A stretch of DNA of 39,016 bases. It comes from a virus. Below the pieces are notes generated by a model. That model worked only from the letters and a program-made list of their open reading frames with translations. It ran no database searches and had not been told where the DNA came from. Made by a program: the position numbers and the translations under genes. The DNA is taken from positions 1-39,016 of IMG/VR virus record IMGVR_UViG_3300006734_000017. One strand, 5' to 3'. Positions 6,830-30,504 of the stretch are shown here, in pieces. How positions within the stretch are numbered: the first letter of the stretch is position 1; the number at the start of each line of letters is the position of its first letter.

Positions 6830-6861
6830 ATTGTGTAGAGTAACTTCGATTGAGTTTTGTC

Positions 6862-7449
6862 ATGAGCGTACTAGCTGACTGGGAAATCCGAGAATTGGTT
6901 GAAAAGGAGGGGATGATTGAACCATTTGTCGATCATCTTGTCAACCAAAAAAAGGACAAAAAAATCTTAAGCTATGGGCTCAGTTCTTATGGTTACGATA
7001 TCCGCTTGTCCCCCCAGCAGTGCCTTGTTTTTGGACGCATTTCGGAGGGTGAATGTGATCCAAAGGATTTTAATCCTTCTATTTTGACCTCTTCTGAGCT
7101 TTTAGAAGACGAAAAAGGGCAGTATTTTCTTTTGCCTCCATATGGGTATTGTCTTGGTGTGGCCCAGGAAAAACTAAAGCTTCCACGTGATGTTACTGTC
7201 GTTGCGGTTGGCAAATCAACCTATGCACGCTCTGGGATTTTAGTTAATATCACTCCAGCTGAATCTGGATGGGAAGGATATTTAACACTAGAAATCAGCA
7301 ACTGCACTGGGCTATACAACCGTGTTTATGCTGATGAGGGAGTAACGCAGCTTCTTTTCTATCGAGGCAATCCTTGTGAGGTTACTTACCAGGATCGCAA
7401 AGGCAAGTATCAAAACCAAAAGAAAGAAATAGTTTTTTCTCGTGCTTAA
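6862..7449 (+). CDS. dcd: dCTP deaminase
   Basis: 195 residues from ATG 6862; an in-frame TTG at 6850 is possible but less likely. It deaminates dCTP to dUTP, feeding dTTP synthesis for phage DNA replication. Visible family features are SSYGYDIRL (residues 41-49), the KSTYARSG block (118-125) that binds the triphosphate, GWEGYLTLEISN with the catalytic Glu at about residue 144, and the C-terminal VYADEGVTQLLFYRG core strand. Length matches the family. Whether it is mono-functional or a bifunctional dCTP deaminase/dUTPase cannot be decided by eye. It ends convergent with the next minus-strand gene, sharing the bases TTAA. Confidence 0.92.
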   Translation: MSVLADWEIRELVEKEGMIEPFVDHLVNQKKDKKILSYGLSSYGYDIRLSPQQCLVFGRISEGECDPKDFNPSILTSSELLEDEKGQYFLLPPYGYCLGVAQEKLKLPRDVTVVAVGKSTYARSGILVNITPAESGWEGYLTLEISNCTGLYNRVYADEGVTQLLFYRGNPCEVTYQDRKGKYQNQKKEIVFSRA

Positions 7450-7849: not shown

Positions 7850-8203
7850 ATGTACATATCAATGCATAACGCAGCTGGATTTCTAGACAGTTTTGTCCAA
7901 GATGAACTGAAGTGTCGTTGTTTAACGGAAGAAGACTTCGGCGGTCCGCTCGATAATGAAGAAAATGATGTACCCTTATATGATATGTACAATCGAGGGT
8001 TGACTTTATGCGAACAAGGGCTGGAGCGGAATCCGTTGAATCTCGAGGGGCAACGTCCTGGAACGACTGGTTTGATCCCATCGATGGAAGAGGGGATGGC
8101 AATGGGGGCAGCACCAAGGCCGAAGACTCTGGTACTGGAGCTGGAAGAGCCAGAGGAGATGGAGAAAGTTCTGTCGGCAAAACGGCGGGGTTTGATGCGC
8201 TAG
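7850..8203 (+). CDS. Acidic small protein overlapping the DUF3310-like gene
   Basis: 117 residues from ATG 7850, which has only a weak Shine-Dalgarno (TGAGAT). The first 50 residues are acidic and look like real protein (LDSFVQDELKCRCLTEEDFG, then PLYDMYNRGLTLCEQGLERN). The last part ends in a charged amphipathic helix (LVLELEEPEEMEKVLSAKRR). Its last 196 bases overlap, in another frame, the start of the DUF3310-like gene. Alternatives are a true overlapping pair, or one gene split by a frameshift near 8010-8200. Unknown function. Confidence 0.5.
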   Translation: MYISMHNAAGFLDSFVQDELKCRCLTEEDFGGPLDNEENDVPLYDMYNRGLTLCEQGLERNPLNLEGQRPGTTGLIPSMEEGMAMGAAPRPKTLVLELEEPEEMEKVLSAKRRGLMR

Positions 8204-8535
8204 ATATTTCTACGCAAGTTCCCGATTACCCTGGTCTAAGTGCGATGACAGAATGTGCTGGTGGTATCTGTCCTGTGCCTTGGGCAGTCAAAGAAGAAGC
8301 GCCCACCATTCAACCAGACGAGGTAAACCATCCTCCGCACTATACCGATGGTGGGATTGAGTGTATTGAAGCTATTGAAGCTTCATTGACGCCGGAAGAA
8401 TTTCGTGGTTATTGCAAGGGTAACCTAATGAAATATGGCTGGCGTGAACGCCTGAAAGGCGGTACTAAATCACTGAAAAAAGCGCAGTGGTATTTAGACC
8501 GTCTTATTGCGTTTGATGAAGCTCAAAAGGGCTGA
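8008..8535 (+). CDS. DUF3310-like phage protein
   Basis: 175 residues. The C-terminal 70 residues match the DUF3310 pattern common in phage early regions: DEVNHPPHYTDGGIECIEAI, LTPEEFRGYCKGNLMKYGWR, then a Lys-rich GGTKSLKKAQWYLDRLI segment. The domain is sometimes annotated as a nucleotide-kinase-like phage protein, but its biochemical role is not settled. The first 100 residues are a low-complexity Gly/Arg/Ser and acidic region. The start at 8008 is favoured by GAGGG eight bases upstream, although it lies inside the previous gene in a different frame. A later ATG at 8245 lacks a Shine-Dalgarno. The gene ends convergent with, and overlapping by 13 bases, the NblA-like gene. Confidence 0.75.
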   Translation: MRTRAGAESVESRGATSWNDWFDPIDGRGDGNGGSTKAEDSGTGAGRARGDGESSVGKTAGFDALDISTQVPDYPGLSAMTECAGGICPVPWAVKEEAPTIQPDEVNHPPHYTDGGIECIEAIEASLTPEEFRGYCKGNLMKYGWRERLKGGTKSLKKAQWYLDRLIAFDEAQKG

Positions 8536-8822
8536 AGATCTTCGTCATCCTCATCCTCGTCGTCGCAAATAAATGCGGCGGCGAGTTCTGCTAATTCCAG
8601 ATCTGTTGGTATATCGAAATCAATAGAAATATTCTCGTCGGCCAAAATGTCTTTAATTGCAAACCATTCCATCAGCCGTTGGTGATACAGGTTTAATAGA
8701 GCAGCATAAAGCTGTTCCCATGTCATCTCTTGGGCTTCAAGCTCGGCTCGCCGCATGGAAAACTGTAATTCCAAAGGAAGCTCAAACTGTCGAGATTCCA
8801 CTGACTTTTCCATGGTATCCAC
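8523..8822 (-). CDS. nblA: NblA-like phycobilisome-degradation adaptor
   Basis: 99 residues from GTG 8822; an ATG at 8813 is an equally plausible start. Residues about 14-63 align without gaps to cyanobacterial NblA: ELPLELQFSMR corresponds to the family ELSLEQQFSIR, followed by the M...Q, LL.LY.Q and basic IKDIL positions of the two-helix fold. NblA binds phycobiliprotein and a Clp chaperone to dismantle light-harvesting phycobilisomes. Some freshwater cyanophages are known to carry nblA. Unusual here is a C-terminal extension of about 35 residues ending in an Asp/Glu tract (DDEDEDDEDLQPF), longer than the usual roughly 60-residue NblA. It lies downstream of the endolysin on the same strand, suggesting late expression. 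The identification is by visual alignment. Confidence 0.65.
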   Translation of the reverse strand: MDTMEKSVESRQFELPLELQFSMRRAELEAQEMTWEQLYAALLNLYHQRLMEWFAIKDILADENISIDFDIPTDLELAELAAAFICDDEDEDDEDLQPF

Positions 8823-8857
8823 AATTTCTATCAGTTTATTCTACGACCACGCATTAA

Positions 8858-9532
8858 TCAATCCACATAGGTGGAAAAATTCTCAATCGATCCCTCTTCT
8901 CCAAGAAGTTCATCCAGCCACACAACGTTGCTCAACTCAAAAGAGTTGGAAAAATCAGTCAGAACATAGGGGTTGATTGTCTCTTCCAGTTCTTGGATCG
9001 CGTTGATTTGGTTGGGAGTGCCTGAATAACATCTGAAAGCTTTTAACAAAATATTGGAGGAACAATACTGAATTGGATTGATGTCATACAAGAAAAGCCT
9101 TACTTCTTCCTTGCGACGACTTAAGAGCCCACCCGTTGCTTGTCCTTCATGGTCATAGATCCATTTCATCATGCAATCAACAACAGCAGACCAGTCTTCG
9201 TTTTCAATGTCATCTAATAACTCGCTGTAGCGGAAGGGTTCCCAACCAACAGAATGAATAAAAGACAACAAAGATTGCTTCATATGGTAATCAAGTTTTA
9301 TATTCTCTTTTTCCAAGAGGTCGTCAATGATGTTTAACTCGTGTGTTAAATATTCCAATGCTTTGTGTTTTGTGCAGCAATGGCCCTTTAAGACAGGGCT
9401 GCCATCTGGATAATACTGGCTACCAAAACCAAAGGTAAAAGGCGCACCACCGGTCGCTGGATCGGGGTACGCCTTCTCATTGAAGCCCTCGTATTTGCAG
9501 ATTAGTTCAATCGCAAGACAATAATCTTTCAT
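8858..9532 (-). CDS. Endolysin, GH24 (T4-lysozyme-type) muramidase
   Basis: 224 residues from ATG 9532; an in-frame TTG at 9556 would add eight residues. It cleaves the glycan strand of peptidoglycan to release progeny. The GH24 signature is present: ICKYEGFNEKAYPD with Glu15 and Asp24 spaced as in T4 lysozyme (E-x8-D), then APFTFGFGSQYY with Thr33, giving a Glu/Asp/Thr catalytic set. Residues about 95-160 carry the helical lobe (SLLSFIHSVGWEPFRYSELL, then GGLLSRRKEEVRLF). About 60 C-terminal residues have no recognised domain. There is no signal peptide, so a holin is expected; none is certain nearby. A perfect hairpin abuts the start codon (separate entry). The NblA-like gene follows. Confidence 0.88.
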   Translation of the reverse strand: MKDYCLAIELICKYEGFNEKAYPDPATGGAPFTFGFGSQYYPDGSPVLKGHCCTKHKALEYLTHELNIIDDLLEKENIKLDYHMKQSLLSFIHSVGWEPFRYSELLDDIENEDWSAVVDCMMKWIYDHEGQATGGLLSRRKEEVRLFLYDINPIQYCSSNILLKAFRCYSGTPNQINAIQELEETINPYVLTDFSNSFELSNVVWLDELLGEEGSIENFSTYVD

Positions 9533-16720: not shown

Positions 16721-17395
16721 TTATAATCCTGGCAATCGAGCGGTGCTAGTTAATGCCGATAGATAAGGACTAACTGGTGTTAAAGATTGGGCAGAAAACG
16801 CATCACGCTGTACAGGTGACATTTGTTTCATTGCAAGGTTCAGCACAGAACCTTGTAATGCAGGAGAATTCAAAAGCAGTTCTCCTGTAAACGCAGCAAG
16901 TAAGCTTTGTGGATCAATGAGTGATCTAGATGCGGCCTGTTGTGTGGGTTGATCTAGAGTGCCGAGTTTTTCATAAATTGCTCTGGCAGCTTTTTGGCGA
17001 GCTTCCGTTTTGGGGATGCCTGCACGCTCGTAATCGGTAACGAAACGCCTTGCCGCCTCTTCTGGGGAAACAGCACCACGCAACGATTGTCCAGCAGCTT
17101 TCTCTGGCCCTTGAAGCTCATGGATAAGAAAGTCGGCTTGTGCTTCAACGCTGCCAGGATCTAGTCCTTTTTGTTTGGCAAAGTTAATCAAAGCATTTTG
17201 ACGCCCACCCGTCCACTGCGCTAAGCCAAAACCACCTACACCTAAGGGTGCGCCAACCTTACCACCCTCATTGATGCGAGGATTGAAGCCGGATTCCAGC
17301 TGGAAATTACCAAGGGCGCCTGCGATTTGACCGCGTGAATACCCAGCCGCTTGCATGCGCTTGGCAACAATAAGAGCGTTGGGATCTAACGACAT
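16721..17395 (-). CDS. Tail-lysozyme-like peptidoglycan hydrolase
   Basis: 224 residues. The first 150 match the phage tail lysozyme type (Phage_lysozyme2-like): AAGYSRGQIAGALGNFQLES with the likely catalytic Glu34, GFNPRINEGG, then FGLAQWTGGRQNALINFAKQ and a helical C-terminal part of the domain ending RAIYEKLG. The remaining 70 residues are helical and probably anchor it to the virion. It is distinct from the GH24 endolysin and likely acts on the wall at DNA entry. It sits in the structural operon downstream of probable connector genes. Confidence 0.8.
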   Translation of the reverse strand: MSLDPNALIVAKRMQAAGYSRGQIAGALGNFQLESGFNPRINEGGKVGAPLGVGGFGLAQWTGGRQNALINFAKQKGLDPGSVEAQADFLIHELQGPEKAAGQSLRGAVSPEEAARRFVTDYERAGIPKTEARQKAARAIYEKLGTLDQPTQQAASRSLIDPQSLLAAFTGELLLNSPALQGSVLNLAMKQMSPVQRDAFSAQSLTPVSPYLSALTSTARLPGL

Positions 17396-26117: not shown

Positions 26118-26303
26118 CTACTCTTCTATTACTTCATACCCGGAAGGGTCGTGGACTTTCGATAAAATAATGCCTTCGCCTTTCACATCCCAATTCAAAA
26201 TATCACCTTCTTGCCAGCCAAGATCCTCAATGACCTCATCTGGTAGGGTAATAAAAGGATCTCCGTTTTCGTCTTCTTCAATCTCGATAATGTAGCTGCT
26301 CAT
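26118..26303 (-). CDS. AbrB/SpoVT-like small protein
   Basis: 61 residues. ENGDPFITLPDEVIEDLGWQ, then EGDILNWDVKGEGIILSKV, match the swapped-hairpin AbrB/MazE-type DNA-binding fold (G-x-hydrophobic-x-LP...lGw..GD.l). Similar short proteins are common in phages. It has few basic residues, so it may act through protein contacts rather than as a strong DNA binder. It overlaps the upstream membrane-coiled-coil gene by 4 bases (ATGA). Its placement in the packaging operon is unusual for a regulator. Confidence 0.72.
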   Translation of the reverse strand: MSSYIIEIEEDENGDPFITLPDEVIEDLGWQEGDILNWDVKGEGIILSKVHDPSGYEVIEE

Positions 26304-26593
26304 TTTGACAAAAGCTTTTCCATAAGCTTATCAAGTTTATTGTTGATTTCGCGAAAATTGTCATGCATTTCTTGAATTTCTCTTAAGAAATCAACCTTCA
26401 AAACATATTCCATTGGCATTCGATTAATTTGATCTTCCAGAATATCAATCCGACGTTTTTGAGAACTTGTATAACTAAGCGCATTTTGAATACGTTCTTG
26501 TTGTCGATCTAAAATTTTGTTGGCCACCCAAGAACCGCCTGTTACTGCAGAGATTATAGCGGTTAGGCCAATAGCAAAAAATTCTGGTCCCAC
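26300..26593 (-). CDS. Small membrane-anchored coiled-coil protein, possible lysis protein
   Basis: 97 residues from a GTG start at 26593. One transmembrane helix (residues about 5-25, FFAIGLTAIISAVTGGSWVA) is followed by a long charged helix with heptad-like spacing (DILEDQINRMPMEYVLKVDF, then REIQEMHDNFREINNKLDKL). This arrangement fits an inner-membrane spanin-like or holin-accessory protein, or a membrane tether. It follows the large terminase gene by 29 bases and is coupled to the AbrB-like gene. A holin role is possible but is not proven by one helix. Confidence 0.55.
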   Translation of the reverse strand: MGPEFFAIGLTAIISAVTGGSWVANKILDRQQERIQNALSYTSSQKRRIDILEDQINRMPMEYVLKVDFLREIQEMHDNFREINNKLDKLMEKLLSK

Positions 26594-26622
26594 TGGAATA
26601 AACGTTTTTTCTTATTCTAAAT

Positions 26623-30474: not shown

Positions 30475-30504
30475 ATTATAAATTAAAGGGTTTTAGATGG
30501 GCAA
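30475..30504 (-). promoter_or_regulatory. Predicted sigma-70-type promoter, minus strand
   Basis: On the minus strand TTGCCC (30504-30499), an 18-base spacer and a perfect TATAAT (30480-30475), with the 225-residue gene starting 22 bases beyond. It would add transcription of the packaging and capsid genes independent of the cassette to the right. Confidence 0.45.

Follow-up and report, generated by a model that had tools for sequence, protein, structure and literature searches.

The endolysin-nblA locus

The window, that is, the whole stretch of DNA analysed here, is the 39,016-base virus record IMGVR_UViG_3300006734_000017 of IMG/VR. Its minus strand contains a 99-codon ORF that starts with GTG (8523-8822) and whose product ends in ...FICDDEDEDDEDLQPF. 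The homologues of this NblA-like ORF share an ATG at position 8813, and the protein therefore most likely comprises 96 residues. The features of the locus are as follows.

6850..7449, plus strand: dCTP deaminase gene, the independent anchor of the linkage test
8008..8535, plus strand: convergent DUF3310 gene, whose 3' end overlaps the end of nblA by 13 nt
8523..8813, minus strand: NblA-like coding sequence, 96 aa when read from the conserved ATG (99 aa for the GTG ORF, 8523-8822)
8526..8564, minus strand: acidic tail, residues 84-96, ending DEDLQPF, similar to the C-terminal tip of SSB; low-confidence in the model and probably disordered
8565..8603, minus strand: third predicted helix of the C-terminal extension, residues 71-83; the cellular NblAs matched end earlier
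8643..8783, minus strand: NblA domain PF04485, predicted to fold as a hairpin of two helices (residues 14-28 and 32-59 of the 96), from profile search and structure prediction
8837..8843, minus strand: TAGAATA, candidate -10 element of a promoter, 30 nt 5' of the nblA ATG
8858..9532, minus strand: GH24 endolysin gene (Phage_lysozyme, PF00959), directly 5' of nblA

The endolysin matched PF00959 at 66.4 bits (E 4e-18) in a Pfam search, and its gene lies 44 nt 5' of the nblA ATG. A second lysozyme encoded in the window (16721-17395, minus strand) is of the tail type, matched Phage_lysozyme2 at 124.6 bits, and is distinct from the endolysin.

Within the phage collection, a strong match to the NblA-like protein came from Synechococcus phage S-EIV1 alone (protein AHV82245; 67.9% identity over residues 4-81), where the gene is annotated as 'hypothetical protein' and lies directly behind 'lysozyme'. 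A prophage resembling S-EIV1 has been described in Synechococcus elongatus UTEX 3055 (PMC9239245). The gene order endolysin-nblA-DUF3310-ORF125-dCTP deaminase was common to the window and S-EIV1 (KJ410740). In IMG/VR, 147 stretches were confirmed with a single sequence as query and at least 503 with an alignment. We examined the loci of the best 80 of the 147, the best 80 of 430 found with dCTP deaminase, and the best 80 of the at least 503; since each set consists of the best 80, the distant members of the lineage were seen solely through S-EIV1 and two records found by SSB.

Among the loci found by nblA (the best 80 of 147 plus S-EIV1), the endolysin gene was directly 5' of nblA in 78 of 81, and the remaining three contigs start 12-138 nt 5' of nblA. 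When the loci were anchored on dCTP deaminase (the best 80 of 430), nblA was present in 77 and adjoined the endolysin gene in 75, the five exceptions being contig ends. The alignment scan contributed 69 further loci, 68 of which had the pair; the other contig starts 129 nt before nblA. These three sets share contigs and are not independent of one another. The gene was also present in all 10 records of 76-85 kb, of which four had been found by nblA, four by dCTP deaminase, and two by SSB alone. The position behind a GH24 endolysin, which the preliminary description had reported for the window, is thus fixed in all of the lineage members examined; since the pair occurred in every member that was sufficiently long, it is not peculiar to the window.

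Promoter-like elements and timing

A -10-like sequence, TA[GA]AAT, was present in all 21 distinct endolysin-nblA gaps. The window contains four copies of TAGAATA, at 8843, 26120, 26619, and 28519. Every copy is on the strand of the structural genes, and by subtraction the four lie 30, 29, 26, and 28 nt 5' of the starts at 8813, 26091, 26593 (GTG), and 28491, respectively. Across six related genomes, 18 of 47 TAGAATA copies were located 21-36 nt 5' of an ATG, against an expected 2.3%, and 12 of 41 were so located when the six nblA sites were excluded. Of the 15,746 7-mers present in 15 or more copies, TAGAATA ranked third, and it came first among its 105 permutations. In S-EIV1, TAGAATA and the variant TAAAATA precede several genes on the structural side; the element also precedes two replication-strand genes, and some copies precede no gene. 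These patterns suggest that TAGAATA is likely a lineage-wide, late-type -10 promoter element.

The preliminary description proposed that nblA is expressed late, together with lysis. Its first part is supported, in that strand, position, and promoter type all point to probable late expression. The second part, co-transcription with the endolysin gene, is not established, as nblA has a promoter-like element of its own. Because TA[GA]AAT occurs in every distinct gap and TAGAATA is enriched 5' of genes, nblA probably has its own transcription start; with TAGAATA read as a late-type -10 element, expression would be late and would come from this start in addition to read-through. A bicistronic endolysin-nblA message as the sole source of nblA transcripts was set aside in view of the promoter-like element.

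Several other sites were observed in the course of this comparison. At S-EIV1 positions 742 (plus strand) and 13602 (minus strand), TAGAATA lies 26-30 nt 5' of gene starts. In five of the loci (L002, L004, L005, L020, and L050), the TAG stop codon of the endolysin gene doubles as the start of the TAGAAT element. The window gene that follows the TAGAATA copy at 26619 (26300-26593, minus strand; 26 nt between element and start) encodes a protein of 97 aa that is hydrophobic at its N-terminus, charged elsewhere, and holin-like by eye; a Pfam search with it gave no match. A different sequence was found on the replication side of S-EIV1, where TTAAACTGC precedes SSB and one other gene and CTAAACTGC precedes a third. 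At positions 30498, 33587, and 42996 (minus strand), GTCC(C/T)AAGCATGAC is closely followed by TTAAACTGC (once by CTAAACTGC), and this element lies approximately 32-39 nt 5' of three replication-side genes, one of which is SSB. It is probably another promoter class.

Relationship to cellular and viral NblA proteins

Positions 1-47 of the PF04485 profile aligned without gaps to residues 14-60 of the window protein, with a score of 26.7 bits (E 8e-6), above the gathering score of 25. The gapless NblA alignment over about 50 residues that the preliminary description noted was therefore reproduced by the profile. Fifteen of 16 family members matched PF04485 at E<=0.01, and the S-EIV1 copy scored 17.4 bits, which is under the cut-off. 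A sequence search of the PDB returned five weak matches, the best of which, and the only NblA, was 1OJH from Nostoc (49 residues without gaps, E 0.027). The identity of the protein to six cellular NblAs was 25-35%.

The relationship was also recovered in the opposite direction. When a profile built from the viral family only was searched in 386 cyanobacterial genomes, it matched 24 places in 23 of them. The PF04485 search also covered 18 of these 23, and all 19 places within those 18 were PF04485 NblA genes. The remaining five genomes fall outside the 291-genome PF04485 sample, in which PF04485 itself matched 103 genomes, the viral profile being far less sensitive and missing most cellular NblAs. 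An HMM made from 52 distinct cellular NblAs, searched against the reading frames of the loci, recovered the S-EIV1 protein (E 1.8e-5). In a tree of 56 rows, the nine viral rows formed one group (100/98), with few columns and long branches. A tblastn search of the phage collection with a Nostoc NblA fragment returned nothing, which we read as a limit of sensitivity because PF04485 finds NblA in Ma-LMM01 and PaV-LD. A genome_contigs search with the window protein gave 48 pattern matches and no confirmed relatives. The window protein also matched DUF4030 weakly (E 0.0023, under its cut-off), and a DUF4030 match was seen in seven of the 16 family members; it was treated as chance. Judged by these sequence comparisons, the ORF encodes a true but divergent NblA homologue.

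The two-helix fold that an NblA should have was returned by AlphaFold, which predicted a hairpin with helices at residues 14-28 and 32-59, followed by a third helix (71-83) and a low-confidence tail. The confidence of this model was moderate (mean pLDDT 72.5, pTM 0.46). A cellular NblA predicted as a control had helices at 9-22 and 27-55, and the limits of the two models agreed within approximately one residue at the alignment offset of 5. A search with the viral model by Foldseek and VIA-align gave no PDB match; this null result says little, since a Foldseek search with the cellular control also missed 1OJH.

The viral protein is thus like cellular NblAs (PF04485, e.g. 1OJH) in its gapless 47-residue domain and predicted two-helix pattern, and it largely keeps the L-x-L-E-x-Q-F motif that they share. 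It differs from them in having lost the basic residue at position 53 and gained an extension of approximately 35 residues with a third predicted helix. As the preliminary description stated, nblA is carried by some freshwater cyanophages, and PF04485 found the NblAs of Ma-LMM01 and PaV-LD. These two proteins showed only 24% and 15% identity, respectively, to the S-EIV1-type protein; they retain K or R at position 53 and have no acidic -PF tail. Neither gene lies beside an endolysin gene, as Ma-LMM01 nblA adjoins nrdA and PaV-LD nblA adjoins a thymidine kinase gene. The timing may differ as well, since S-EIV1-type nblA is likely late, whereas the neighbour of Ma-LMM01 nblA, nrdA, is described as an early gene (PMC4103541).

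The NblA of S-SCSM1 is 54 aa long, is 10% identical in the alignment, and stops before position 53; its gene follows a virion gene. A PF04485 search of the S-SCSM1 and S-TIM5 records gave no match. The marine viral NblAs (S-SCSM1, S-TIM5, and those of cyanopodoviruses) are likewise phage-borne and divergent, and they were reportedly treated by Nadel et al. in 2019 and 2025. One paper lists phage NblAs for Ma-LMM01, MaMV-DC, PaV-LD, S-TIM5, S-SCSM1, and cyanopodoviruses (PMC9602691). Table 2 of another gives photosynthesis genes by cyanophage group and lists nblA for groups other than that of S-EIV1 (PMC5332604). We found no report of nblA in S-EIV1 in the literature searched, which was represented partly by excerpts and did not include the S-EIV1 genome paper or the two reports of Nadel et al.

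Client-binding end, C-terminal tail, and possible function

In Nostoc NblA, phycobilisome binding is attributed to Leu51 and Lys53. The position equivalent to Lys53 was basic in none of the 78 distinct S-EIV1-type proteins (71 parsed and seven read by eye), which have A, E, D, or V instead. In 80 distinct NblAs from cells, Ma-LMM01, and PaV-LD, mostly Nostocales and relatives, it was K in 77 and R in three, and none of these 80 proteins ends in PF. Position 51 is still I or L in the S-EIV1-type proteins. The N-terminal motif (LTMEQ-type; L-x-L-E-x-Q-F) is mostly kept: the window protein retains L-x-L-E and QF, with the LTMEQ-type Q changed to L, and S-EIV1 has M in place of this Q and Q in place of E. 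The N-terminal motif of NblA binds ClpC and the C-terminal motif binds phycobiliproteins (PMC4103541).

The preliminary description linked the gene to the dismantling of phycobilisomes. This link is not established, since the Lys53 equivalent is replaced in 78/78 proteins and the cellular NblAs matched have nothing that corresponds to the extension. We have therefore filed the protein as an NblA homologue rather than as a proven phycobilisome adaptor. The client-binding end appears from these alignments to have been rebuilt, with phycobilisomes still the likeliest client.

The extension of approximately 35 residues comprises the third predicted helix, followed by a tail that is acidic and ends in -PF, and it has no counterpart in cellular NblA, as the best viral-profile matches stay within positions 2-63 of 97. 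The unusual acidity of the C-terminus noted for the window protein extends to the family, in which 6-12 of the last 18 residues are acidic (78 distinct proteins). In 77 of the 78, the acidic run is followed by a C-terminal PF, with tips that include LQPF (54), GVPF (4), AIPF (2), and PIPF (2). The SSB C-terminal tip (SSB-Ct, DDDIPF) is likewise an acidic run followed by hydrophobic-Pro-Phe, and it is described in two papers as a docking motif (PMC5872125, PMC7145534). The phage SSBs themselves end in TDEPF in S-EIV1 and in EDEEMVPF, NADQPF, DANAPF, and LEEQPF in IMG/VR relatives. Of the 662 genes predicted in five long genomes, 16 encode a product ending in PF, and each of the five genomes has both its SSB and its NblA-like protein among these; SSB was identified by Pfam in S-EIV1 (PF00436, 34.7 bits) and by similarity or eye in the others. 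The SSBs of all six IMG/VR SSB loci also end in xPF, three of these loci lying in the same genomes as the set of five. Unlike SSB, the NblA-like protein has no OB-fold, a Pfam search having given no SSB (PF00436) match in it, and its tail is attached to an NblA hairpin. The pN/pS ratio was 0.14 in the core, 0.22 in the linker and third helix, and 0.33 in the tail.

The best explanation, and in our judgement a reasonably probable one, is that the protein acts late, as an NblA-type ClpC adaptor specific to the S-EIV1 lineage of cyanophages, and that its client is still most likely a phycobiliprotein. Its message would arise late in infection, both at the promoter of nblA and through transcription continuing past the endolysin gene. 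The protein would dimerise, hold the host ClpC through its N-terminal motif, and deliver a client for proteolysis. If that client is a phycobiliprotein, its loss would release amino acids and lower light capture before lysis. The C-terminal extension would provide one more contact, possibly with a protein to which the tail of the phage SSB binds as well. If the protein is a working NblA, then proteolysis of the antenna or of other Clp-directed targets would be a fixed step of infection in a common cyanophage lineage, and it would belong with lysis in the infection programme and not with nucleotide metabolism.

The main rival, which we regard as unlikely but worth weighing, is that the adaptor has been retargeted: the hairpin would still bind ClpC, the client end would have been exchanged, and late in infection the SSB-like tail would bring proteins of the SSB network (those acting in replication and repair, of the phage or of the host) to ClpC or block their pocket. 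The near-constant PF end (77/78) with tips such as those given above, its persistence where the last codons have no sense overlap (27 of 28 distinct combinations), the xPF ends of the SSBs of the same genomes (5/5, and 6/6 IMG/VR SSB loci), the docking role of DDDIPF, and the loss of Lys53 all speak for this rival. However, acidic tails are common and PF is two residues only, the tail is under looser constraint than the core (pN/pS 0.33), and some phage SSB tips are weakly acidic (NDANAPF, DNADQPF). In addition, most sampled cyanobacterial SSBs have no PF end, so that partners with a suitable pocket are not assured in the host. By eye, an SSB ending in PF was seen at only one of 30 cyanobacterial loci, with one SSB locus per genome for most, and the partner of the tail may therefore be viral. 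With its SSB-like tail, this one small protein allows retargeting of an adaptor to be tested directly. In a stronger form, which we think improbable, a host Clp adaptor that destroys the antenna would have become a late adaptor for DNA-replication proteins, having lost its phycobilisome contact and copied the phage's own SSB tail as bait; it would remove or block these proteins at the shift to packaging and lysis.

We also consider it rather improbable that the protein is not an NblA in function but a small helical hairpin, either unrelated or put to a wholly new use (for instance as a lysis or virion accessory protein), that resembles NblA in sequence only. The Pfam score is weak and near its cut-off, there is the weak DUF4030 match as well, and the gene adjoins an endolysin gene, all of which would fit such a protein. 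Against this, the reciprocal profile matched only NblA genes in the genomes common to both searches, the cellular-only HMM recovered the S-EIV1 protein, and the predicted helix limits equal those of the cellular control.

That the -PF tip and acidic end are a by-product of the convergent DUF3310 gene overlapping the end of nblA is very improbable and was largely rejected: although 218 of the 232 loci have an opposite ORF of at least 50 aa that overlaps this end (in 211 it is DUF3310) and all six PF nucleotides lie under opposite sense codons in 167, the last codons are free of sense overlap in 65 loci (one near a contig end), and among the other 64 PF is kept in the 27 of 28 distinct end-and-codon combinations mentioned above. 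Since PF persists without the overlap and is encoded by seven codon pairs across all loci, the tip appears to be kept for the sake of the protein.

The sole non-PF variant, present in five of the 232 loci (L300 and four more), ends in DDDPFQVA, which is the same tip plus three residues. In record G388, a 142-aa protein with no significant Pfam family (L443:5880-6308, plus strand) ends in an acidic -LEEIPF, the third SSB-like tail in that genome.
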